Assembly (NCBI RefSeq): GCF_000422645.1
Contig: NZ_AUGL01000009.1
Location: 124,001 to 188,000, forward strand
Source of the DNA: Ferrimonas futtsuensis DSM 18154
Lineage (GTDB): Bacteria > Pseudomonadota > Gammaproteobacteria > Enterobacterales > Shewanellaceae
Direction of reading: 5' to 3'
DNA length: 64,000 nucleotides
Positions 5,000 through 19,056 of the stretch are shown piece after piece. Under the pieces are notes generated by a model. It was given only the letters and a program-made list of their open reading frames with translations, did no database searches and was not told the origin of the DNA. How positions within the stretch are numbered: the stretch's first letter is position 1; the number at the start of each line of letters is the position of its first letter. Made by a program: the position numbers and the translations under genes.

Positions 5000-6883
5000 T
5001 TACCCCTGATTGGGATGACAGGTCATGCAGGAATAGGGGTCGGGGAACACCCGGCTCATGTCCCAGTCGGAGTTCACCGAGCTCCACACCTTCTCATAGG
5101 GCTGATAGTTGCCCTGGGCATCCCTGGGCAGGGCGTTGAGCTCGTTGGGGTCGTTGTAGATCTTGTCGTTGCTCTTGATCTGCTCCCCTTCATACAGCCT
5201 GCGGGTGGAGGCATCACCATGATGGCTGGGGGTATTACTCTCCCCGGCATGGCACCAGAAGCAGCGGGCGGTCTCGCCATGGCCCGCAGGGGCACCGTTG
5301 CTGCCGTGACAGGTGGCGCAGTAATAGGGCTGGGTCTGATCAAAACCATCGCTGCTGTTCACCGGCCAGCTGTGGCCGCCGTGACCCCGGGGCTGTTTCT
5401 GCTCGTTGTGACACTCGGTGCAATCGGCGATGCCCCAGCCAAAGTGCCCCTCGGTCAGCAGTGGGCCCTCTTCAGGCAGGCTGAAGGTCTGCAGGGTCAT
5501 GATGTCGGAGCCATCTTCCGCCTCACTGAAGTCACGCTGGGCAGACTCCTTGCCGTTGTACTCCTCCATCCCGAACAGTTCGTAATGACTCTTGTAGACC
5601 AGCATGGTGAACTGCACCGGTTGGTTCATCACCCAGGTGTCCGACATCATGTGCATGATGTTACCGCCGAAATTGGCGTTCCAGTCCAGCCGGCAATGCT
5701 CCGGGTCCGCGACCAGGTCCATGCCGCCTGTTGCGGGCGAAGAGAAGTTGCACACGGAGGCGGGGGAGAAGTCGCCATGCACGGCCATATCACCATAGAC
5801 GGTGGCCCAGCCCCGGCCCACTTGTGAGGCGACGCCGTCGACCCGGAACAGGGCGAAGTGCTCCACCCTGGCACCGGTGGACAACGATGGCCAGTAGTTA
5901 AACGCCATATCCAGGCCGGCATCGGCGGCAGAGAGGAAGATGTCCATCTTGGTGATCACCCCGGGCTGGAAAATATCCGGCCGCATGTTGTGGGCGGTCA
6001 CCTCCAGGTTGGGGATCACCACCGGCTTGGGCTCTCCCGGTTTCATTATCTGAAGTTGGGGCAGGATCACCTTGCCGTCGCCCGCGGCCAAACGCGCCAT
6101 CTCCCGCTGCTGCACCCAATGGCGCCGCTGGGTCATCTCCGGGGAGAAGGGCTGGAAGCGGATGGTCATCCGCGGCTGCAGCCAGACCTGATCCAGCCTC
6201 TCATAGTGGGCCTCGCCCTGGGGTCCCAGGCCGGTGAGGGTGCCATTGAGCTTGATCAGCTCGCCGCCGTCATACTTGACCCGGCCGTGCCAGTGCGCCC
6301 CCTGAAAGTTGGCGTAGAGGTCGTTGTCGTTTTCATCAAACACACCGTCGCCATTACGATCCCAGGAGACCACAAAATCATGGGTATCACGGCCTGTCTG
6401 CTCCGGTCCCTGCACCTGCTCCAGCTTGAGATCGGCGCGGGTGGCCGCCAGGTAGCGCAGGGCATCGAATACCGAGTAGTGGCCGTCGACAAAGATATCA
6501 GGACGGGCACTGCCGGCGCCGAGGCCATCGGGGTTGGTGCGCAGTACTCTGTCCATCTCCGCCGCCTGAACAATGATGGGGGTCTCGTCGGGGTTGTAGA
6601 CACCGTCTAAGTGGGCGTCGCGCTCATCGATATGGCCATCGCCATTGAGATCCCGCGCACTGTCACTCTGAAGCCAGTCCTTCAGCAGGTCAGGATAGCG
6701 TCCCAGGTACACCTGGAACTGCCCCTCGAACACGGCCTGGGGGCTCACATCCACCGTCAAGTACGGGGATTGAGGGGGCTTAGGCTGGGGCTCGGGAACC
6801 ACAACATCGCCATCGTCACTGCCGCAGCCGCCCAACAGGGCAGCCAGCAGCAGCGCAGAAAGGGGGTATCTGCTCATCATCAT
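5000..6883 (-). CDS. Tetrahaem c-type cytochrome lipoprotein with EF-hand-like loops
   Basis: The 627-residue protein has a lipoprotein signal (LLAALLGGC, Cys20) and four CxxCH haem-attachment motifs packed at the C-terminus: CTECH (488), CATCH (522), CFWCH (541) and CMTCH (619). Two EF-hand/dockerin-type calcium loops are visible near residues 78-90 (DLNGDGHIDERD) and 173-187 (DRNGDGVFDEND). The long middle part, about 190-480, is beta-rich and unrecognised. It is smaller in haem number than OmcA/MtrC decahaem proteins. It is likely an electron-transfer lipoprotein of the outer membrane or periplasm, perhaps with its own substrate domain. Start: three consecutive ATGs at 6883-6875, with GAGAGAT just upstream. 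It is a single-gene unit ended by a strong hairpin. Haem count is seen; location and electron partner are inferred. Confidence 0.85.
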   Translation of the reverse strand: MMMSRYPLSALLLAALLGGCGSDDGDVVVPEPQPKPPQSPYLTVDVSPQAVFEGQFQVYLGRYPDLLKDWLQSDSARDLNGDGHIDERDAHLDGVYNPDETPIIVQAAEMDRVLRTNPDGLGAGSARPDIFVDGHYSVFDALRYLAATRADLKLEQVQGPEQTGRDTHDFVVSWDRNGDGVFDENDNDLYANFQGAHWHGRVKYDGGELIKLNGTLTGLGPQGEAHYERLDQVWLQPRMTIRFQPFSPEMTQRRHWVQQREMARLAAGDGKVILPQLQIMKPGEPKPVVIPNLEVTAHNMRPDIFQPGVITKMDIFLSAADAGLDMAFNYWPSLSTGARVEHFALFRVDGVASQVGRGWATVYGDMAVHGDFSPASVCNFSSPATGGMDLVADPEHCRLDWNANFGGNIMHMMSDTWVMNQPVQFTMLVYKSHYELFGMEEYNGKESAQRDFSEAEDGSDIMTLQTFSLPEEGPLLTEGHFGWGIADCTECHNEQKQPRGHGGHSWPVNSSDGFDQTQPYYCATCHGSNGAPAGHGETARCFWCHAGESNTPSHHGDASTRRLYEGEQIKSNDKIYNDPNELNALPRDAQGNYQPYEKVWSSVNSDWDMSRVFPDPYSCMTCHPNQG

Positions 6884-6983: not shown

Positions 6984-8024
6984 TTAGCTCTGTGATGTGC
7001 CTCGGGTTAAGCGGGTCAGCCCCTCCCGATGAGCTGAACGCCATAGGTGGGGCGACACTCCCATCCGCCGCTTGAAGGCACGGGAGAAGGCGCTGAGATC
7101 GTGATAGCCAAGGATCTCCGCCAGCAGCGTTACCTCCATGTTGCTGAATCTCAGGTGCCAACAGGCGGACTGCATGCGCAGTTCACTGAGCAGGGCCCTG
7201 AACTCCACCCCTTCCGTCTTCAGCTGTCTCTGCAGGGTGCGTCGATTCAGCCCCAGCAACCTGGCAATATGGTCAATGTTGGCCTGACCGCTGCCCAGGG
7301 TCTGCTGTATCAGGCCACTGACCTGGGCCACCCTCCCCTGCCCCGACACCTTAAGACGCTCACTGATCTGTCGGCTCAGACGCTGACTGTCCTCGGGTTG
7401 CGAAGGGTGCAGTTGACGCCTCAGAAAAGCTCCTGGGATCCACAGGGTGTCCTGGGGCTGATTGAACATCACTTCACAACCAAAGTGATCACGATAGCAG
7501 TGTCTGGAAGAGAGCGGCGCGTGGGCGAAGTCGACCCGGGCGGCACGAAAGTCAGGCCCAATCAGATCCCGACACAAGCGGAAACAGGCACTGATGGCCA
7601 GCTCCTTATAGTGGCGGGAATCGGTTTCACCGTGAAAGTTGTCGAAACGTTGGATGGCCAGCAACTGCCCCTGGAGTCGGTGGTCCCAGTACTCAGACTG
7701 GTTGTGAAACGCCATCAGACTGCGCACCGCCTTGAGGGCCTGCTCCGGCGTGTCACAGCGGCGGAGCACCATGCCCAGCTCACCCAACATGGTGAGATCC
7801 TGCAGCGCCCCCAGTTTCAGGCCAAACTCCGGACAACAGAGATCCGAGGCACAGCACTCCAGCAGCCTGGCCAGCTGCTCGATATCCATGGTCTGCTCAC
7901 TGTGAAGCTGTGCGGGCGTCAGCCTTGCCAGGGCGAGCTGCTGCTCGGCGTTGCCACCCATCGCCTCTATCAGGCGATCAATACCCACCAGGGCACTGAC
8001 CCTGATACGAAATCCTTGTGTCAT
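6984..8024 (-). CDS. AraC-family transcriptional regulator
   Basis: This 346-residue protein is an AraC/XylS-family regulator of the OruR/ArgR-like subgroup. A large N-terminal arabinose-binding-like domain (about residues 10-200) is followed by a C-terminal double helix-turn-helix (about 240-335: HIARLLGLNRRTLQRQLKTEG, then LAEILGYHDLSAFSRAFKRRMG). The ATG at 8024 is preferred because GGGAGG lies six bases upstream; the frame extends only to a TTG above it. It diverges from the amidohydrolase-SDR operon across about 117 bp and probably regulates it. Confidence 0.9.
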   Translation of the reverse strand: MTQGFRIRVSALVGIDRLIEAMGGNAEQQLALARLTPAQLHSEQTMDIEQLARLLECCASDLCCPEFGLKLGALQDLTMLGELGMVLRRCDTPEQALKAVRSLMAFHNQSEYWDHRLQGQLLAIQRFDNFHGETDSRHYKELAISACFRLCRDLIGPDFRAARVDFAHAPLSSRHCYRDHFGCEVMFNQPQDTLWIPGAFLRRQLHPSQPEDSQRLSRQISERLKVSGQGRVAQVSGLIQQTLGSGQANIDHIARLLGLNRRTLQRQLKTEGVEFRALLSELRMQSACWHLRFSNMEVTLLAEILGYHDLSAFSRAFKRRMGVSPHLWRSAHREGLTRLTRGTSQS

Positions 8025-8141
8025 GCCATTCCTCCCTGTGAACAAGTATCATCCAACCCCTGTCACCAAATGACAAGCGCCATAATGAGAATGGGAGTAG
8101 GATGCATTTCTATAGGAAAACTGCTTAAGGAACAGGCAACC

Positions 8142-9902
8142 ATGGCTGAGTACGATTTTCTGATTCGACGGGGGCGCTACTTCGACGGCAGCGCCAGCCC
8201 CTCCTTTGTCGCCGATGTCGCCATCACAGGCGGGCGCATTGCCAGGGTCAGCGCCGACCCGCTGCCCACAGAATCTGCCGCCAGGGTGTTCGAGGCAGAG
8301 GGCAAGTGGATCACCCCCGGGTTTATCGACACCCACACCCACTACGACGCCGAACTGCTGGTCAGCCCCAGCCTGTCCGAGTCGGTGCGCCACGGCGTGA
8401 CCACGGCTCTGGTGGGCAGCTGCTCCCTGAGCATGATCTGCAGCGACTACGAGGACGCTTCAGACATCTTCACCCGGGTGGAGACGGTGCCCAGGGAGAA
8501 GGTGTTGCCCATCCTCAAGGACAAGAAGTGCTGGAAGACACCGACACAGTGGCTGGCACACATCGATACCCTGCCTCTGGGGCCCAACCTGATCAGCTTC
8601 CTCGGCCACAGCGACCTGCGAGCCAGCGTCATGGGCCTGGAGCGCGCCACCGACCACAGCATCACCCCATCGGAGGCTGAGATGCAGGCGATGGAGGCAC
8701 TGCTGGAAGAGGCGCTGCAAGCGGGATTCCTCGGGCTGTCCACCATGCGATTGAAGTGGGACAAAATAGACGGTGACCGCGCCTGGTCCCGCAGCCTGCC
8801 CAGCACCTACGCCAAATGGCGGGAGATCGCCCGGCTGAACCAGCTGGTGCGCCGCTATGGCCGGGTGCACCAGGGCGCGCCAAACGCGGCCACGCCACTG
8901 CGCATCTTCGATTACGTCAAGGAGAGCCTCGGCTGGCGGCGCAAACCCCTTAAGACCACCCTCATCAGCCAGATGGATCTCAAGGGCAGCCGCTACCTGA
9001 CCAACCTCACCAAGCTCACCTCCCGTTTCACCAACCTACTCAGGGGTGACTTTCGCTGGCAGGTGCTGCCCACTCCCTTCACCGTCTATGCCGACGGCAT
9101 CGATGTGGTGTTCTTCGAGGAGTTTGGCGCCGGAGAGATGGCCCTGGACCTCAAAGACCAGGTGGAGCGCAATGCCCTGCTCAAGGACGAAACCTATCGG
9201 CGGGAGTTTCGCAAATTCTATGGCGAGAAGCTCAGTCCCAGGGTGTGGCAGCGGGATCTTGGGGACGCCACCATCATCGATTGTCCAGACACCACCCTGG
9301 TCGGCCGCAACTTCCAGGAGGTCGCTACTGACCGAGGCATCCATGTGGTGGATCTGTTCCTGGATCTGGTGGTGGAGTACGGCACCAAGCTGCGCTGGTA
9401 CACCACGGTGGCCAACCACAGGCCTCAGGTGCTGAAGAAGCTGGTGAGCGATCCCCACGCCATCATCAGCTTCAGTGACGCCGGTGCCCACATCCGCAAT
9501 ATGGCCTTCTATAACCTGCCTCTGCGCATGCTCAAACTGGTGAAGCAATCCATCGATGAGGGACAGCCGGTGATGACCCTGGAGCAGGCAGTATGGCGCC
9601 TCACCGGCGAGCAGGCCCAGTGGCTGGGGGTGGACGCCGGCAGCATCAAAGAGGGAGACAGGGCCGACCTGGTGATTCTGGATCCTGACGAGCTGAGTCA
9701 GAATCTGGAGTCGGTCAGTTGGGGCGAGATGGAGAACTTTGACCTTCAGAGGCTGGTCAATCGCAACCCCGGCATCGTCCAACAGGTGTTCATCAATGGC
9801 AAGCTGGCAGTGGACGGGGATGTGGTTCAACCCGATCTCGGCAAAACTCCAGGCTTTGGCCGCTTTATCCCCGCAGGCCAAGCTCGAGGAGAGCGATCAT
9901 GA
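8142..9902 (+). CDS. D-aminoacylase/N-acyl-D-amino-acid deacylase-like amidohydrolase
   Basis: The 586-residue enzyme is an amidohydrolase-superfamily metal hydrolase of the D-aminoacylase group. Visible features are the first metal motif TPGFIDTHTHYDAE near residue 60, the C-terminal FSDAGAHIRNMAFYN segment carrying the catalytic Asp, and the composite beta-sandwich end (GDRADLVILDPDEL). Such enzymes cleave N-acyl-D-amino acids or related amides; the true substrate is unknown. The start at 8142 has TAAGG 11 bases upstream and starts the usual MAEYDFLIRRGRYFDG strand. The frame is open for a further 1.1 kb upstream, but that part is antisense to the AraC gene. Its TGA overlaps the next ATG. 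Confidence 0.88.
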   Translation: MAEYDFLIRRGRYFDGSASPSFVADVAITGGRIARVSADPLPTESAARVFEAEGKWITPGFIDTHTHYDAELLVSPSLSESVRHGVTTALVGSCSLSMICSDYEDASDIFTRVETVPREKVLPILKDKKCWKTPTQWLAHIDTLPLGPNLISFLGHSDLRASVMGLERATDHSITPSEAEMQAMEALLEEALQAGFLGLSTMRLKWDKIDGDRAWSRSLPSTYAKWREIARLNQLVRRYGRVHQGAPNAATPLRIFDYVKESLGWRRKPLKTTLISQMDLKGSRYLTNLTKLTSRFTNLLRGDFRWQVLPTPFTVYADGIDVVFFEEFGAGEMALDLKDQVERNALLKDETYRREFRKFYGEKLSPRVWQRDLGDATIIDCPDTTLVGRNFQEVATDRGIHVVDLFLDLVVEYGTKLRWYTTVANHRPQVLKKLVSDPHAIISFSDAGAHIRNMAFYNLPLRMLKLVKQSIDEGQPVMTLEQAVWRLTGEQAQWLGVDAGSIKEGDRADLVILDPDELSQNLESVSWGEMENFDLQRLVNRNPGIVQQVFINGKLAVDGDVVQPDLGKTPGFGRFIPAGQARGERS

Positions 9903-10741
9903 GTGATATGCGACCACGACTGGTGCTGATCACCGGCGCCTCCAGCGGCATAGGGCTAGGCCTGGCCAGGGCCTACGCCGCCAAGGGCTGGAGCATTGCC
10001 CTGCTGGCCCGAAACCCCAAGAGACTGGAACGGGCACTGCTGGAGTGCCGCCATCTGGCCACCGATAACAACCAGAGCTTTGAAACCTACGAAGTCGACG
10101 TTGCCGACGCCGCTTCGGCCTACGGCCATCAGCAGCAGGTCGAAGCCAGACAGGGGGTACCGGATCTGCTGCTCCTCAGCGCCGGCATCGTCCAGAGCAT
10201 CCCCTTCATGGAACAGAGCGACGAGGAGTTCGATGCCATCCTCACCACCAACTTGCTGGGATGCCGACGCCTGGCCAAAGCCTGGCTGCCCCAGATGGTG
10301 GAACGTGGCAGCGGACAGATCTGCTTTGTCAGCTCCCTGGCCGGACTTATCGCCCCCTATGGTTACTCTGGCTACAGCGCCAGCAAGTTTGCCCTGTTGG
10401 GGATGGCTGGGGCACTGAAACAGGAGGTGCACGCCTTGGGCATCCGTGTGTCGGTGCTCTGTCCACCCGAGGTGGATACCCCGATGGTGGCCCAGGAGCG
10501 CACCTACATCAGCCCTGTGGCCAGGCTGCTGAAAGATCTTGGCGGCACGCTTCAGGTGGATGCGGTCACCCGGGCCACCCTCAAAGGGCTCGAAAAGAAA
10601 CGATTTCTGATCATCCCCGGCGTTCAGGCCAAACTCACCTATCACTTTGCCCGGCTGTGTCCCGGGCTCTTCGACTGGGCAATGCAGAGAATCGTGGACT
10701 GGGCCGGAAAGCGTCACATCCGGCAACAAAAAGTGGGATAA
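9899..10741 (+). CDS. Short-chain dehydrogenase/reductase (SDR)
   Basis: The 280-residue SDR has the NAD(P)-binding motif TGASSGIG (residues 12-19), a catalytic Ser in the SSLAGL segment and Tyr/Lys in YSASK. The C-terminal extension of about 40 residues (VQAKLTYHFARLCPGLFDWAMQRIVDW) is amphipathic and may contact the membrane, as in 3-ketosphinganine-reductase-like SDRs. It overlaps the amidohydrolase by four bases (ATGA), so the two are translationally coupled and probably act on the same lipid-like or acylated substrate. The substrate is not deducible from sequence alone. Confidence 0.88.
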   Translation: MSDMRPRLVLITGASSGIGLGLARAYAAKGWSIALLARNPKRLERALLECRHLATDNNQSFETYEVDVADAASAYGHQQQVEARQGVPDLLLLSAGIVQSIPFMEQSDEEFDAILTTNLLGCRRLAKAWLPQMVERGSGQICFVSSLAGLIAPYGYSGYSASKFALLGMAGALKQEVHALGIRVSVLCPPEVDTPMVAQERTYISPVARLLKDLGGTLQVDAVTRATLKGLEKKRFLIIPGVQAKLTYHFARLCPGLFDWAMQRIVDWAGKRHIRQQKVG

Positions 10742-12729: not shown

Positions 12730-14556
12730 TCACGCCAGATAGCCACCATCCACCGGCAACTCAATGCCGGTAATGTACGCCGCCGCATCGGACGCCAGGA
12801 ACAGGAAGGCGGGGGCAATTTCAGTGGGCTGCGCCGCCCGGCCCTGGGGGATCAGCCCCAGGATCTGCTTCAGCAGCGCCGGGTTGTCGGTCAACGCCGA
12901 CGCAAACTTGGTCTCCGTCAGGCCAGGCAGCACCGCATTGACCCGGATGTTGTAGCGGGCGCACTCCTTGGCAAAGGCTGCGGTCATGCTGTTTACCGCC
13001 GCCTTGGTGATGGAGTAGATCCCCTGCCCCGGCGCCGGAATGCGGCCATTGACCGAGGCGGTATTGATGATCACCCCGCCCCCCTGCTCACGCATCCTCA
13101 CTCCGGCCAACTGGGCAAACTGGAAGTAACCGCAAAGATTCACCTCGATGGTTTTCTCCATCGCCTCGCGGGGGGTATCCAGAATGTGGCCAAAGTAGGG
13201 GTTGGCTGCGGCATTGTTCACCAGGATGTCCAGTCGGCCATACTCGGCGTCGATGCGCTCAAACAGCTGCTGCATCTGCGCACTGTCGCCGCCATGACAA
13301 GCGATAGCCCTGGCATCGCCACCACTCTCACGGATGTCTACCGCCACCGTTTCCAGGGATCCCTGGTCGCGGCTGGAGAGGATCACCCTGGCGCCATGGG
13401 CCGCATACAGTCGGGCCACCGCCTCGCCAATGCCCCGACTGGCGCCGGTCACCAGGGCCACCCGGCCCTCAAGAGAGAGCAGCCCTGTGCCTTCGAGCTT
13501 TTGCAGCAGCGCCGGGCGCACGGCCACCTGTTCCAACTCATCAATCTCTGCCGCCGCCCTGTCCATCAATACCGCAGCCATCTCACCAAATCGTGCGAAG
13601 GCGGGGTGTTGGCGGCTGCCCTCCACATAGCGATACCAGATCTGCTGGACAATGACCGCCAGCCGGAACAGGCCAAAGACGTAGTAGTAGGCAAAACTAC
13701 TGACATCCCGGCCGGTCTGCTCACCGTAGTAGGCCACCAGTTGGCGACGGCTCCACATCCCCGGCAGGTGGGTCGGCATCTGCCTGAGCATCTTCATCTG
13801 GGGCGGGTCGCCCGCCTCCACCCAGTAGGCCATGGAACACCCTAGGTCCATAAGGGGATCGCCCAGGGTGGCCATCTCCCAGTCCAATACCGCACGGATC
13901 TCGGTGGGGTCTTCCGGGTTGAGTACCAGATTGTCGAACTTGAAATCGTTGTGGATCACCGCCTGCCCAGACTCCGGCGGCCGGTTGTCAGCCAGCCAGG
14001 TCATGATCCGCTCCGCGCCGCGGGCCCCCGGGGTCAGGGCGTTGCGATAACGCTCGCTCCAGCCTGACACCTGACGCTCGACATAGCCCAAAGGTTTACC
14101 CAGTTCCGCCAGAGGCGTGCCGTCAATGGGCAGAGCATGGAGCTTCACCAGGGTATCCATCATCGTCTGACACAAGGCAGACGCCTGGCTTTTGGCCAGC
14201 CCCAGGGTGTCCGGCAGGCTGCGCCTTAAAATGATTCCCGGCTCATAACTCATCAGGAAGAAGGGGCACCCCAGAACCTGTTCATCCTGACAGCTGTGGA
14301 GAACCTCGGGCACCAGGGAAAAACCGTCCGCCACCGCCGAGAGCATCCGCGCCTCCCGGTCCATGTCATGGGCGGTGGCCGCCTTGGTTCCCGGGGGCGG
14401 CATGCGCAGCACCAGGGTGCGTTCCGAGCACTCCAGCATAAAGCTCAGGTTGGAGGCCCCCCCTTCGAAGGGGGTCACCGACGCCAGTTCACCCAACTGG
14501 GGGAGATGCTGAGCGAGATAGGCACGCAGGGCTTCAAGGTTGAGGGATTGGGTCAT
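12730..14556 (-). CDS. Fusion of ACAD10/11-type acyl-CoA kinase domain and SDR
   Basis: This 608-residue protein joins two enzymes. Residues ~1-350 form an aminoglycoside-phosphotransferase-like kinase of the ACAD10/11 N-terminal/LvaA type, with Brenner motif VIHNDFKFDN (~200) and metal-binding LDWEMATLGDP. Residues ~360-608 form an SDR with VTGASRGIG (~369), NNAA, catalytic YSITK (~514) and C-terminal PVDGGYLA. In mammals and in the Pseudomonas levulinate pathway the kinase phosphorylates 4-hydroxyacyl-CoA; LvaD is an SDR acting before it. The fusion therefore could reduce a 4-oxoacyl-CoA and phosphorylate the product; this is inference. The ATG at 14556 has GGAGAG seven bases upstream and overlaps the TetR gene by 23 bp. 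No stop or frameshift separates the domains. Confidence 0.88.
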   Translation of the reverse strand: MTQSLNLEALRAYLAQHLPQLGELASVTPFEGGASNLSFMLECSERTLVLRMPPPGTKAATAHDMDREARMLSAVADGFSLVPEVLHSCQDEQVLGCPFFLMSYEPGIILRRSLPDTLGLAKSQASALCQTMMDTLVKLHALPIDGTPLAELGKPLGYVERQVSGWSERYRNALTPGARGAERIMTWLADNRPPESGQAVIHNDFKFDNLVLNPEDPTEIRAVLDWEMATLGDPLMDLGCSMAYWVEAGDPPQMKMLRQMPTHLPGMWSRRQLVAYYGEQTGRDVSSFAYYYVFGLFRLAVIVQQIWYRYVEGSRQHPAFARFGEMAAVLMDRAAAEIDELEQVAVRPALLQKLEGTGLLSLEGRVALVTGASRGIGEAVARLYAAHGARVILSSRDQGSLETVAVDIRESGGDARAIACHGGDSAQMQQLFERIDAEYGRLDILVNNAAANPYFGHILDTPREAMEKTIEVNLCGYFQFAQLAGVRMREQGGGVIINTASVNGRIPAPGQGIYSITKAAVNSMTAAFAKECARYNIRVNAVLPGLTETKFASALTDNPALLKQILGLIPQGRAAQPTEIAPAFLFLASDAAAYITGIELPVDGGYLA

Positions 14557-15241
14557 TGCTGGTCTCTCCATGACACAGAAGTTGAACTCGGTTAAGCAGG
14601 TAGTCGGTATAGGCATCCACGCTGACACCGGCTTTACGAAAGTGGCTGCGCCTCAGGTACCAACCCTGCAACAGATGCTTAAGCAAGCCAACGGCGATCA
14701 CCGGTTGCTCCACCTGCCCCAACTGCATCAGGCTGCGATGCAGCTCGTCATCCACCTGTTCGCTCAGGGCCAGCGCTTCCCGGCGAAGGGTGTCGCTCTG
14801 ATGGCGCGCTTCCATATAAGCGAAGTAGAACCAGGGCTGCATCAGCTCACTCAGATAGAGGTGATAGCGGCAGATCGCCTGAAGTTGCTGCTGCCGGGGC
14901 AAAGCACGAATCATCGGCAGCAGCACCTGCTCGAACTGAATCCGGATAAATCGATGAATGGAGGCGGCCAACGCCTCCTTACTGTCGAAGTAGCCGTAGA
15001 GTCCCCCAAGGCTGAGGCCGCTTGCCTCACTGAGCTGACGCAGAGTCATGGCATGAAACCCCTTGAGGTTCGCCAGTTCAAAAGTGGCGTTGATGATCGC
15101 CGCCAGCCTGGCATCGGTCCGCTTGGGGTTCTTCTGTTTCAGCTGGGGCAGGCAGTGGTGGCGAAAGCTCTGCCACAAGCCGTCTGGCTGCCACTGCAGT
15201 TGCCGCTGAAACTGCTCCAGAGAGCAGGCAATGTCAGTCAT
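14534..15241 (-). CDS. TetR-family transcriptional regulator
   Basis: The 235-residue TetR-type repressor has its helix-turn-helix at about residues 50-90 (MTLRQLSEASGLSLGGLYGYFDSKEAL), after an unusually long N-terminal extension of about 40 residues. The C-terminal ligand domain is helical. It lies inside the operon, overlapping the acyl-CoA dehydrogenase (ATGA at 15238-15241) upstream and the kinase-SDR fusion downstream, so it is made together with the enzymes. Its likely operator is the 14-bp palindrome at 17165-17178 in the operon's promoter region, which fits TetR half-sites; acyl-CoA is the probable ligand by analogy. Confidence 0.9.
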   Translation of the reverse strand: MTDIACSLEQFQRQLQWQPDGLWQSFRHHCLPQLKQKNPKRTDARLAAIINATFELANLKGFHAMTLRQLSEASGLSLGGLYGYFDSKEALAASIHRFIRIQFEQVLLPMIRALPRQQQLQAICRYHLYLSELMQPWFYFAYMEARHQSDTLRREALALSEQVDDELHRSLMQLGQVEQPVIAVGLLKHLLQGWYLRRSHFRKAGVSVDAYTDYLLNRVQLLCHGETSNDPIPQP

Positions 15242-16428
15242 CGATGCGCCCTGAGCAGGTGCTTCGCCGCAGACAGTTTGTGCACCTCATCTGGGCCATC
15301 GTAGATACGAGCGGCGCGCTCCTCCCGGTAGAGGAAGGCCAGTATGGTGTCGTCGGTGACGCCCAGCCCCCCGTGAAGCTGAACCGCGGTATCCACCACC
15401 TGCTGCAGCATGCGGGCGGTGTGGAACTTGATCATGGCGATCTCCGCCCGCACCGTGGCAAAGTCCTCCCTGTCCACCTGCCAGGCGGTGTGCAGGACGA
15501 ACCAGCGCGCCGCCCGGTGTGCCGCTGCGGCTTCCGCCAGCAACCCTTGGGCCAGGGGTTGCTCTCCCAGGGTCTTCTGAGCGGTGATCGCCCGCTGATT
15601 CAGGTAGCCAACGGTCTCATCCAGGGCCCGCTGGGCCAGTCCTAGCCAGCGCATGCAGTGGTGTATCCGCCCTGGCCCCAATCTGGCCTGAGCCAGGGCA
15701 AACCCTTGCCCTGCCTTGCCCACCAGGGCATCCGCCGGCAGTTTGACGTCGTCGAACAGCATCTCGGCATGGCTGAAGGGGCCGTGACCCTCTCCGCCCA
15801 TCACCGAGATGTTGCGGATGCGGGTGACGCCGGGGGCATCCATGGGCACCAGCAACATAGAGGCCTGCTGATGGGGGGGGGCTTCCGGGTGGGTCTTGGC
15901 CATCACTATGGCAAATTCGGCCCCTTCGGCGGCGGTGGTAAACCACTTGTGGGCATTCAGGTGCCAGCAGTCGCCATCGAACTCTGCCTCGCTGTTCATC
16001 ATCAGTGGGTTGGACCCGGCCAACTGACGTTCGGTCATGGCGAAGCAACTGCGAATTTCCCCCTTGGCCAGGGGCTCCAGGTAGCGGCTGCGCTGCTCGG
16101 CGGTGCCGCAATGGAGCAGCAACTCGGCGTTGCCCGCATCCGGCGCCTGACAGCCAAAGGCAAAGTGCCCCAGGGGGGAGTAACCCAGGACTTCAGCCAA
16201 TTGAGCAAACTCGATGAGCGACAGGCCCATCCCGCCCAGCTCGGTCGGCAGGTGCGGGGCCCACAGCCCAAGCTCGCGAACGCTCTGGCGCACCTCCTCC
16301 AGCTCGCCCATCAGAGTGGCGTAGTCATGGCTGAGCAGCAGAGGTTCGAGGGGAATCAGTTGCTCCCGAACCAGAGAGGACGCCTCGTCGCAGGCGGTTT
16401 TCAGGCCGGGTGAGAGGGAAAAATCCAT
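15238..16428 (-). CDS. Acyl-CoA dehydrogenase, ACAD10/11 (LvaC-like) type
   Basis: The 396-residue flavoenzyme has the acyl-CoA dehydrogenase fold: CFAMTE FAD-binding segment, HKWFTTAAEGAEFAIV strand and LHGGLGV near the C-terminus. Two features place it with ACAD10/11 and LvaC rather than fatty-acid ACADs: GPGRIHHCMRWLG (about 249-261) and DGPDEVHKLSAAK at the end (about 375). Members of that group process 4-phosphorylated acyl-CoAs, removing phosphate and giving enoyl- or 3-hydroxyacyl-CoA. Start: GGAGG five bases before ATG 16428, with the site lying in the end of the phosphatase gene. The stop overlaps the TetR start. Confidence 0.92.
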   Translation of the reverse strand: MDFSLSPGLKTACDEASSLVREQLIPLEPLLLSHDYATLMGELEEVRQSVRELGLWAPHLPTELGGMGLSLIEFAQLAEVLGYSPLGHFAFGCQAPDAGNAELLLHCGTAEQRSRYLEPLAKGEIRSCFAMTERQLAGSNPLMMNSEAEFDGDCWHLNAHKWFTTAAEGAEFAIVMAKTHPEAPPHQQASMLLVPMDAPGVTRIRNISVMGGEGHGPFSHAEMLFDDVKLPADALVGKAGQGFALAQARLGPGRIHHCMRWLGLAQRALDETVGYLNQRAITAQKTLGEQPLAQGLLAEAAAAHRAARWFVLHTAWQVDREDFATVRAEIAMIKFHTARMLQQVVDTAVQLHGGLGVTDDTILAFLYREERAARIYDGPDEVHKLSAAKHLLRAHR

Positions 16429-16429
16429 A

Positions 16430-17101
16430 TTACCTCCATGTCAGCATATCCTGTCGGCGCAGATGGCCATTGATGTTGAACGCCTGCAACTGCCACTGTC
16501 CACGGGCATAGCGCAGGTGGGTTATACTACAGTTATTAACTTGGTGAATAAGTTCAGCCATATGAGAGGCTTGTGCCCCTAACGCCTCGCCTGCAACCAG
16601 GCTGATGACACCGCCGCTGGTCACCGCCAGGGTGGGCTTGTTGCCCTGATGGTGCTCGGCAATGGCTTCGAGGACCCGATGTCTGAACTGACTGAAGCTC
16701 TCCCCTTCACGCTGACCATGATCTGCGATCCAGACCCTGAGGGCTTCGCTCATCAGAGGCAGGAAATAGCGCATATCCTGACTGGCTTCCTTCGGGGTCA
16801 GGGACAACCCCAGTCGCTCGCAAGCCGCCGGCCAGTAGAGGGGAATAAGCTCCATGATCTCCAGTTCATTGAACCCCGGGTCCTGCCGTTCTGTGGGGGT
16901 AAACCCTCCGCCACGGCACACCCCCTCCAGGGTCTGGCGCTGACGTTTCAGGCTGCCGCTGACCAGGGTGGCATCGGACAGGTTCCAGTCCGCCAGCTCC
17001 TCACCCAGGCAGAGAGCCTGCCGCTGGCCCAGATCGCTCAGTTGGTCGTAATCCGGACTGCCGAACATCGCCTGACCGTGACGGAGCAGATAGAGATCCA
17101 T
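16430..17101 (-). CDS. Histidine phosphatase family protein
   Basis: The 223-residue protein is a branch-1 histidine phosphatase. The catalytic motif LLRHGQA contains Arg7 and His8; the second histidine is replaced in register by TSGGVISLVAGEALG, where HGG is usual (SGG here), so activity may be altered. It is the first gene of the operon that continues with the ACAD, TetR and kinase-SDR genes, one base before the ACAD start. A phosphatase beside an acyl-CoA kinase could clear phosphorylated side products or reverse the kinase step, but no substrate can be read from the sequence. Confidence 0.88.
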   Translation of the reverse strand: MDLYLLRHGQAMFGSPDYDQLSDLGQRQALCLGEELADWNLSDATLVSGSLKRQRQTLEGVCRGGGFTPTERQDPGFNELEIMELIPLYWPAACERLGLSLTPKEASQDMRYFLPLMSEALRVWIADHGQREGESFSQFRHRVLEAIAEHHQGNKPTLAVTSGGVISLVAGEALGAQASHMAELIHQVNNCSITHLRYARGQWQLQAFNINGHLRRQDMLTWR

Positions 17102-17122: not shown

Positions 17123-17178
17123 TTGTTTTCACCCTACAAGCTGTTTAGTTTATCGTCAATAACGAACGAACGTTCGTT
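17123..17178. promoter_or_regulatory. Divergent promoters with a TetR-type palindromic operator
   Basis: AACGAACGTTCGTT at 17165-17178 is a perfect 14-bp palindrome, extended by an extra AACG upstream. On the minus strand TTGACG (17159-17154) and TAGGGT (17136-17131) are spaced 17 bp and could drive the phosphatase-ACAD-TetR-kinase operon. On the plus strand TTGTTT (17123-17128) and TAGTTT (17146-17151), also 17 bp apart, could drive the SDR and enoyl-reductase genes. The operator lies just downstream of one promoter and just upstream of the other. The palindrome is seen; the promoter assignments are inference. Confidence 0.65.
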
Positions 17179-17196: not shown

Positions 17197-17973
17197 ATGA
17201 ACAAGGAGTGGTTAATCACCGGAGCCACCGGGGGATTGGGACGCGAATTGGCCAGACTGGGCCAGGACCAGGGGGCCAGGCTGTGGCTGCTGGACCGGGA
17301 CGCCGAGGCGCTGGCTGCTCTGAAGGAGGCGTTGGGGGATCACCACCTGACTCTGGCCGGCGACCTGACCGATCCCGATTATTTTCATGCCTTGCAGTCG
17401 TTGATGGAGGAGCATCAGCCGGGCTTCGACTGGGTATTCAATAACGCCGGCATCGCCTCAGGGGGCCGCTTCGAATCCCTGCCGGACAGCGAATGGCAGC
17501 GCTGTCTGGACATCAACCTGATGGCGCCCGTTCGCCTGTGCCGCACCGTCAGCGGTGCCATGGTGCCCGGCGGTCACCTGGTGAACATCGCCTCTATGGC
17601 TGCCCTGGCCAATGCCCCCTCCATGGCCACCTATAACGTCTCCAAGGCAGCCCTGGTCAGTCTCAGTGAAACCCTGAGGCTGGAATGGCACAGCCACAAT
17701 GTGGGCGTCCATGTGGTCTGCCCCGCCTTCTTCCCCAGCCCCCTGCTCGATTCGCTCAACCCTCAGGGGGTCAACATGGCCAAGGTCGCCGGGAAATTGA
17801 TGGCACGCTCTGAACTGAGCGCCGCCGATGTGGCGGACTACATTGTTCAGCACGCCCGTAAAGGCGAGTTCCTGATTCTGCCCCACCGCAAGTCACGCCA
17901 GGCCTGGTGGCTCAAGCGGTGGCTGCCGGAACGCTTCTTCAAACTGATTTTGCGCCAGGCGCAGGGAGCCTAG
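17197..17973 (+). CDS. Short-chain dehydrogenase/reductase (SDR)
   Basis: The 258-residue SDR has the cofactor motif TGATGGLG (residues 8-15), NNAG, the catalytic Ser in ASMAAL and Tyr/Lys in YNVSK. The C-terminal ~40 residues are basic and aromatic (KSRQAWWLKRWLPERFFKLIL), which suggests membrane contact. The ATG at 17197 has AGGAGG at 17184-17189. It diverges from the kinase/ACAD operon across the palindromic operator and is directly followed by the next gene without spacing. It is probably a lipid or acyl-thioester oxidoreductase. Confidence 0.88.
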   Translation: MNKEWLITGATGGLGRELARLGQDQGARLWLLDRDAEALAALKEALGDHHLTLAGDLTDPDYFHALQSLMEEHQPGFDWVFNNAGIASGGRFESLPDSEWQRCLDINLMAPVRLCRTVSGAMVPGGHLVNIASMAALANAPSMATYNVSKAALVSLSETLRLEWHSHNVGVHVVCPAFFPSPLLDSLNPQGVNMAKVAGKLMARSELSAADVADYIVQHARKGEFLILPHRKSRQAWWLKRWLPERFFKLILRQAQGA

Positions 17974-19056
17974 ATGAGTCACTCTCAATGGATGATATAC
18001 GGAGCCAATGGCTATACCGGAGAGCTGATCGCCCGGGAAGCGGTCAAGCGGGGATTGACCCCCATACTGGCTGGCCGCAACGCCGACAAGGTTGGCCCCT
18101 TGGCCGAGGAGCTCGGCCTGGAAAGCCGCAGTTTCTCTCTGGAGTCGATCGGAGGGGATGCCTTAGGCGATATCAAACTGGTGCTGCACTGCGCCGGCCC
18201 CTTCTCCGCCACCGCCGACCCCATGATGCAGGCGTGCCTCAGGTATGGCTGCCACTATCTGGACATTACCGGTGAAATAGAGGTGTTCGAGCGCGCCGCC
18301 GCCCTGGATGACAAGGCCCGCAATGCGGGCGTGGTGCTCATTCCCGGAGTGGGGTTCGACGTCATCCCCACCGACTGCCTGGCGGCCCGGCTGAAAGCCG
18401 CACTGCCTGATGCCAATCACCTGGCCCTGGGGTTTGACAGCCGCTCCGGCTTTTCACCCGGTACCGCCAAAACCTCGGTGGAAGCGCTGGCTCAGGGCAG
18501 CATGGTTCGCCGAAACGGCAAGCTAGTGGCGACGCCACTGGCGACTTTCACCCGCACCATCGCCTTCGGGCATGAGCCGAAGATGGCAGTGGCGATCCCC
18601 TGGGGCGATGTGTCCACCGCCTGGCACAGCACCGGCATCGACAACATCGAGGTGTTTATCCCCATGTCACCGCGGAAGATCGCCCAGCTAAAACGAATGA
18701 ACTGGTTCAGAAGCATGCTGGGGTGGTCGTGGGTGCAGAGCCTGATTAAAGGCCGCATCGAGCGGGAGCTGAAAGGCCCGAGTGACGACCAGAGGAAACG
18801 CCATACCACCTGGGTCTGGGGCGAGGTGCGAAACGCCAAGGGGGATTATGTGGAAGGTCGGGTGCACACCGCCAACGGCTATGACGTCACCGTCAGCGGC
18901 GCATTGGCGGTCACCGAGCACCTGCTGTCCCAGGCGGATGCCTCAGGTTACCATACACCCTCAACCCTGATGGGCTGGGGCTTGGTAGAGCAACTGCCCG
19001 GCAGCGGCAGCGTTGAACTCTGTCCCCGAGACCAGCAGAGTCAGCCTGCGGCCTGA
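17974..19056 (+). CDS. Saccharopine-dehydrogenase-like trans-acting enoyl reductase
   Basis: The 360-residue protein has an N-terminal Rossmann motif YGANGYTGELIAREAVKRG and the layout of the saccharopine dehydrogenase NADP-binding family (CAGPFSATADPMMQACLRYGCHYLDITGE, then GVGFDVIPTDCLAARL). Members of this group include mycobacterial trans-acting enoyl reductases of lipid synthesis and mammalian SCCPDH. The ATG directly follows the SDR stop codon, so the pair is translated together. Context suggests a reduction step on a lipid or acyl-CoA. The last 16 bp overlap the convergent TM2 gene. Confidence 0.87.
   Translation: MSHSQWMIYGANGYTGELIAREAVKRGLTPILAGRNADKVGPLAEELGLESRSFSLESIGGDALGDIKLVLHCAGPFSATADPMMQACLRYGCHYLDITGEIEVFERAAALDDKARNAGVVLIPGVGFDVIPTDCLAARLKAALPDANHLALGFDSRSGFSPGTAKTSVEALAQGSMVRRNGKLVATPLATFTRTIAFGHEPKMAVAIPWGDVSTAWHSTGIDNIEVFIPMSPRKIAQLKRMNWFRSMLGWSWVQSLIKGRIERELKGPSDDQRKRHTTWVWGEVRNAKGDYVEGRVHTANGYDVTVSGALAVTEHLLSQADASGYHTPSTLMGWGLVEQLPGSGSVELCPRDQQSQPAA

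Follow-up and report, generated by a model that had tools for sequence, protein, structure and literature searches.

One open reading frame in the window analysed here, a 64,000-nucleotide stretch of the Ferrimonas futtsuensis DSM 18154 genome (contig NZ_AUGL01000009.1, positions 124,001 to 188,000), joins a kinase domain of the kind found in the acyl-CoA dehydrogenases (ACADs) ACAD10 and ACAD11 to a short-chain dehydrogenase/reductase (SDR). We consider it probable that the product combines two activities in the catabolism of 4-hydroxy fatty acids. The SDR domain would reduce 4-oxoacyl-CoA with NADPH to 4-hydroxyacyl-CoA, the kinase domain would phosphorylate the 4-hydroxyl at the expense of ATP, and a separate ACAD of the same operon would eliminate the phosphate to give a 2-enoyl-CoA for beta-oxidation, the fusion keeping the activity that makes the hydroxyl next to the one that uses it. 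The substrates would be medium- or long-chain 4-hydroxy and 4-oxo acyl-CoAs left behind by stalled beta-oxidation of hydroxy fatty acids. The operon would be a variant of the known kinase-ACAD pathway, its kinase-ACAD chemistry being well supported by conserved residues and its SDR step likely.

The frame runs without interruption over 12730-14628 on the minus strand (632 amino acids) and contains an aminoglycoside phosphotransferase (APH) domain (PF01636, 6e-48, residues 51-285) followed by an SDR domain (PF13561, 2.7e-62, residues 395-630). The ATG at 14556, giving 608 amino acids, is the likelier start because the upstream GTG falls within the neighbouring TetR gene. A sequence-only reading of this DNA had described the unbroken frame with the motifs HNDFKFDN, LDWEMATLGDP, TGASRGIG and YSITK, all of which we verified in the fusion, as we did GRIHHCMR and DGPDEVH in the ACAD. 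The frame is real: it is kept intact in five other Ferrimonas genomes at 71-93% identity, and an assembly or frame artefact was ruled out by its being uninterrupted in 6 of the 14 Ferrimonas genomes and at 15 distinct loci. A structure model of the fusion (predicted local distance difference test 76.5, predicted template modelling score 0.56) was too weak for the relative orientation of the domains, and a fold search confirmed a kinase fold and an SDR fold, nothing further.

Kinase and dehydrogenase residues

Among solved structures the kinase domain scored 264 bits with 9o56 and 162 bits each with ACAD11 and 3dxp. Passages of a study of ACAD11 describe D220 and N225 of its kinase as catalytic-type residues and R86 and R176 as contacts to CoA (PMC12440821), and equivalents of all four are kept in our alignment. 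D204, N209 and D225, the catalytic Asp, the Asn and the metal-binding Asp of the APH fold, are present in 130/130 kinase rows, 57 of which are Pseudomonas-type loci, and the CoA-contact residues R67 and R161 in 129, the sole exception being LvaA, the kinase of the levulinate (lva) operon. The LvaA compared, taken from an lva-type operon of P. peradeniyensis identified by gene order and Pfam families, has Q and L at these two positions, at an identity (26%) that leaves the column possibly misaligned. No match to the LvaB family (DUF6285, PF19802) was found in the host genome at an E-value of 0.001. Since both CoA-contact Args are kept, the LvaA compared lacks them and no LvaB-family gene was found, the kinase is by its residues of ACAD10/11 type rather than LvaA type; of the earlier label “LvaA/ACAD11-type”, the second half stands and the first does not. 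Phosphorylation of 4-hydroxyacyl-CoA by this domain is thereby well supported.

The nearest solved chains to the ACAD were 4hr3 (246 bits) and three of ACAD11 (234, 232 and 229 bits), the next scoring 152 bits. In passages on ACAD11, R626, H634 and R637 contact the phosphate, while R631 and D753 are among the positioning or catalytic residues (PMC12440821). R626, R631, H634, R637 and D753 correspond here to R249, R254, H257, R260 and D377, the last being the catalytic Asp within the DGPDEVH motif, and their equivalents occur in 66/66 ACAD rows (the window, 64 loci and one LvaC). The sequence-only reading had placed a dehydrogenase of ACAD10/11 type in the same operon, and both its closeness to the ACAD11 group and the retention of the key residues bear this out; elimination of phosphate from a 4-phosphoacyl-CoA by this enzyme appears well supported.

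The fused reductase

The SDR domain is of the classical kind, with a Gly-rich motif and with the tetrad N473, S501, Y514 and K518, the latter in 89/89 rows, 57 of which are Pseudomonas relatives of one another. An Arg ends beta-2 in all 89; such an Arg is typical of NADP(H)-dependent SDRs and an Asp of NAD(H)-dependent ones. In overall sequence the domain lies near PRK07035 (350 bits, under its cut-off of 373), FabG and DHRS4. The earlier suggestion that it corresponds to LvaD, the SDR of the levulinate pathway, did not hold up: LvaD scores 133 bits against it (38% identity) as compared to 137 and 124 bits against two other host SDRs, and the name LvaD-like was dropped since the fused SDR is no closer to LvaD than ordinary host SDRs are. 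Of the reduce-phosphorylate-eliminate order proposed with it, phosphorylation and elimination are upheld by conserved residues. Because the sequence is not specifically near LvaD, we infer the role of the SDR from its context. That it produces the kinase substrate by reducing 4-oxoacyl-CoA is plausible, since kinase and SDR are adjacent in many genomes, have been fused or split repeatedly, and the SDR is of predicted NADP(H) type.

Alternatively, the SDR might act after the ACAD, as a 3-hydroxyacyl-CoA dehydrogenase or a 3-oxoacyl-CoA reductase working on the resulting enoyl- or 3-hydroxyacyl-CoA, in which case the fusion would merely co-locate enzymes of one pathway; we give this a real but minor chance. 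Its FabG/DHRS4-like sequence would suit such a role, passages on ACAD10/11 report that their reactions also yielded 3-hydroxyacyl-CoA (PMC11342911), and at two loci (L069 and L138) the gene order is the fusion and then the ACAD. However, an SDR-ACAD fusion occurs in no typed locus as against an SDR-kinase fusion in 15 distinct loci. The conserved Arg, by the cofactor rule given above, also fits a reductase better than an NAD+-linked catabolic dehydrogenase.

Distribution, junctions and gene neighbourhoods

A search for fusions of the same domain order, with typing of their neighbourhoods, yielded 15 distinct fused loci placed in trees: six from Ferrimonas, six from the family of Kangiella sp. 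HZ709, and three from metagenome-assembled genomes, L138 (labelled Acidobacteria), L075 (Ectothiorhodospiraceae) and L069 (“bacterium”). Within Ferrimonas the fusion is present in 6 of the 14 genomes, a separate kinase in seven, neither in one and both in none. A single frame spanning both domains was found in 8/394 genomes of the order and in 1/369 genomes sampled from the class, the single hit being the host genome itself. In a scan of named genomes, 74 of the best 80 of 584 relatives, by a ranking that favours kinase-SDR pairs, had the pair in one frame or adjacent, and eight of these were fused, L138, L075 and L069 included. The fusion is therefore rare and the split pair common, for instance in Pseudomonas, so that the fusion cannot be set aside as common and already assigned. 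As the sequence-only reading had supposed, no report of a kinase-SDR fusion was found in the literature searched (open access, with subscription papers and preprints outside the scope), nor was a functional assignment of the split pair.

Mapped on the trees, the fused label requires five changes for the kinase or six for the SDR, at least three of them being forced by well-supported branches (gains and losses unseparated), and fused and split forms intermix. Such a pattern, together with the junctions of loci L052, L071, L074 and L075, where an ATG is retained behind a purine-rich stretch as after the loss of a stop codon, and that of F. aestuarii (L051), where a Met stands at the junction, is what would be expected if the fusion were a neutral stop-loss event of no functional meaning, with the two domains acting independently. 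We regard this as possible, if the less persuasive account for the window itself. F. aestuarii is the only such case among the other Ferrimonas, the linkers of L047-L050 being without Met, and the window junction (residues 332-365) has no ATG, its TTG and GTG codons lacking a clear ribosome site ahead, so that the SDR there seems dependent on the fused frame. In all six Ferrimonas genomes that carry the fusion, moreover, the frame is open.

The fusion belongs to a minus-strand operon (Table 1) with the TetR, ACAD and histidine-phosphatase-family (HPase) genes upstream of it, neighbours overlapping or abutting, and a second unit of SDR3 and SacDH runs divergently from a common promoter region. 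The TetR gene lies inside the interval 12730..16428 that the sequence-only reading described without mentioning it.

Table 1. Features of the fusion locus, in window positions
Feature	Position	Strand	Description
KIN::SDRf fusion	12730..14556	-	608 aa; ACAD10/11-type kinase ~1-335, short linker, SDR ~359-608
TetR	14534..15241	-	TetR-family regulator in operon; few-base overlap with both flanking genes
ACAD	15238..16428	-	ACAD10/11-type acyl-CoA dehydrogenase; R249, R254, H257, R260, D377 present
HPase	16430..17101	-	Histidine-phosphatase-family protein; RHG kept, S162 replacing second His
Palindrome	17161..17178	.	AACGAACGAACGTTCGTT; divergent promoter, candidate TetR operator
SDR3	17197..17973	+	Divergent SDR; Asp ending beta-2, predicted NAD(H) type
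SacDH	17974..19056	+	Saccharopine-dehydrogenase-like protein, in the divergent unit of SDR3

Within the window the palindrome is found only at the divergent promoter, where three overlapping matches with at most three mismatches stand against 0.01 expected. Its arms have at most one mismatch in 5/6 Ferrimonas loci, being degraded in F. aestuarii, and a similar palindrome has the same location in G396, which belongs to the genus of Kangiella sp. HZ709. The TetR regulator probably controls both divergent units through this shared palindrome, a candidate operator.

Three arrangements recur. Type I is the layout of the window; type II (ACAD-SDR3-kinase-HPase-SDR), whose second SDR differs from the fused one, occurs in the other seven Ferrimonas genomes with a kinase (one of them without the final SDR) as well as in many relatives; and type III is the adjoining kinase-SDRf pair of Pseudomonas (n=57 loci, none fused; L117 8619-11824 is an example), accompanied by an HPase gene in 37/57 and by a gene for the lipid carrier SCP2 in 38/57, the latter hinting at long-chain substrates. 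Types I and II are mutually exclusive in Ferrimonas (six, seven and one with neither; Fisher p 0.005, ignoring ancestry), and since no genome of the genus carries both, the two clusters are suggested to do the same job. At 56 kinase loci from whole-genome searches (two low-scoring loci dropped and four low-identity matches left out), 12 of them fused, an ACAD lies within 7 kb at 52, an HPase at 47, an SDR at 56 and all three at 44; neighbours were taken by profile search, since simple gene picking missed genes in low-GC loci.

SDR3 ends beta-2 with Asp in 49/49 rows. Of the 56 kinase loci, 45 have SDRs of both predicted cofactor types, NAD and NADP, within 7 kb, nine have the NADP type only and two the NAD type only. 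This pairing suggests a stereo-inversion, in which SDR3 would probably convert 4-hydroxyacyl-CoA to its 4-oxo counterpart by oxidation, the enantiomer taken being perhaps the less favoured one.

In the kinase-linked HPases the second catalytic His is replaced by Ser in 88/88 rows, 37 of which are Pseudomonas relatives, so the rows are not 88 independent cases; RHG is kept in 87, the remaining row having a gap. Three host HPases aligned alongside that of the window retain the second His. A search of the PDB with the window HPase gave no match at an E-value of 0.01, and four alignments listed with the PA7 HPase end short of the second His. From the density of PF00300 in the host genome (seven genes per 4.30 Mb; eight matches, two of them in the window HPase gene), an HPase would be expected by chance in about 2.6% of 16-kb stretches as compared to the 47/56 kinase loci observed. 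For a levulinate cluster that lacks an LvaB homologue and has an HPase-family gene, removal of phosphate was proposed in the passages available (PMC6692424), and those on ACAD10 describe a HAD domain with an incomplete DxD motif and negligible phosphatase activity that restrains the kinase (PMC11342911). An HPase with a replaced catalytic His resembles that HAD domain, and a regulatory role here would be a parallel, not a result. Both the SDR pairing and the Ser-for-His replacement look new.

Together these two patterns lead us to speculate on a stereo-correcting entry module, in which the NAD-type SDR would oxidise the less favoured 4-hydroxyacyl-CoA enantiomer, the fused NADP-type SDR would reduce the product to the favoured one and pass it to the kinase, and the HPase would be a regulatory partner of the kinase, the counterpart of the degenerate ACAD10 HAD domain; we hold this elaboration to be doubtful. 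The idea that the kinase is strictly R-specific lost ground: in passages on ACAD10 its kinase prefers R about fourfold with S activity still detectable (PMC11342911), so that there is less call for a strict inversion. A module for short 4-oxo acids such as levulinate is improbable, for although the lva-type operon of L166 has the same Pfam families for kinase, ACAD and SDR, no acyl-CoA synthetase turned up among the ten neighbours scanned and no LvaB-family gene in the genome, the CoA-contact residues of the kinase are of ACAD10/11 rather than LvaA type, and SCP2 recurs in the clusters of Pseudomonas-type relatives.

Shortening of a 10-hydroxy C18 acid gives 4-hydroxyacyl-CoA. Oleate hydratase was considered as a supplier of 10-hydroxy acids within the host and rejected, with no PF06100 match in its genome. 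From gene numbering we take the type III kinase of PA7 to have its counterpart in PA1829 of P. aeruginosa, an assumption of ours. A putative aminoglycoside phosphotransferase, PA1829 is among the oxylipin-signalling effector genes in passages of one study (PMC6377657), and this link fits, but does not prove, a 4-hydroxyacyl-CoA substrate.

Several points weigh against a bifunctional reductase-kinase, among them the lack of any particular likeness to LvaD and our assumption about PA1829, for which the same passages give no direction of response (PMC6377657). LvaD is described in part of its source as accepting NADH or NADPH (PMC6692424), so that cofactor type leaves the direction of the reaction unfixed. 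An ACAD of this kind lies within 7 kb in 0/57 type III loci, with an ACAD10/11-like gene elsewhere in each of six Pseudomonas/Stutzerimonas genomes examined; many bacteria leave the same parts unfused; and the literature searched gave no measured activity for a type I cluster member.

Further features of the region are noted here for completeness. The SacDH gene is conserved next to SDR3 in many type I loci. An amidohydrolase gene and, after it, an SDR gene (6984-10741) stand beside a QhpR-like AraC regulator (under its cut-off), and an amidohydrolase and an SDR also lie close to the block in L047, L048 and L049. The gene at 5000-6883 encodes a lipoprotein-like product that has four CxxCH haem motifs.

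Comparison with known systems

4-Hydroxy acids obstruct ordinary beta-oxidation, and the mammalian enzymes that clear them, ACAD10 and ACAD11, were assigned in 2024-2025 according to the passages available (PMC11342911, PMC12440821). A natural kinase-SDR fusion directs attention to the step preceding phosphorylation, which lies outside those passages, and in many bacteria ties kinase and reductase together. It also offers a single-protein system for testing the interconversion of 4-oxo and 4-hydroxy acyl-CoAs ahead of phosphorylation.

ACAD10 and ACAD11 share with the Ferrimonas operon a kinase and an ACAD with the same key residues; their kinase, however, is fused to the ACAD, with a HAD domain in addition in ACAD10, whereas in Ferrimonas it is fused to the SDR and the ACAD is separate. 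Burkholderia orthologues of LvaA and LvaC can each substitute for the corresponding part of ACAD10, as passages of that study report (PMC11342911). The lva operon of Pseudomonas putida (LvaA, LvaB, LvaC, LvaD, LvaE) likewise combines kinase, ACAD and SDR, and the LvaC compared also holds the ACAD key residues, but its kinase and SDR are separate, the LvaA compared diverges at both CoA-contact positions, and Ferrimonas has neither an LvaB-family match nor a specifically LvaD-like fused SDR. The levulinate cluster of P. citronellolis LA18T, in the part of its description available, resembles the Ferrimonas operon in having homologues of LvaA, LvaC and LvaD with an HPase-family gene and no LvaB homologue, and differs in giving the kinase and the SDR a gene each (PMC6692424). 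The Pseudomonas split pair has adjacent kinase (~43-48% identity) and SDR (~54-59%) genes matching the two domains of the fusion, yet it is unfused in 57/57 loci and stands apart from such an ACAD in every one of them.

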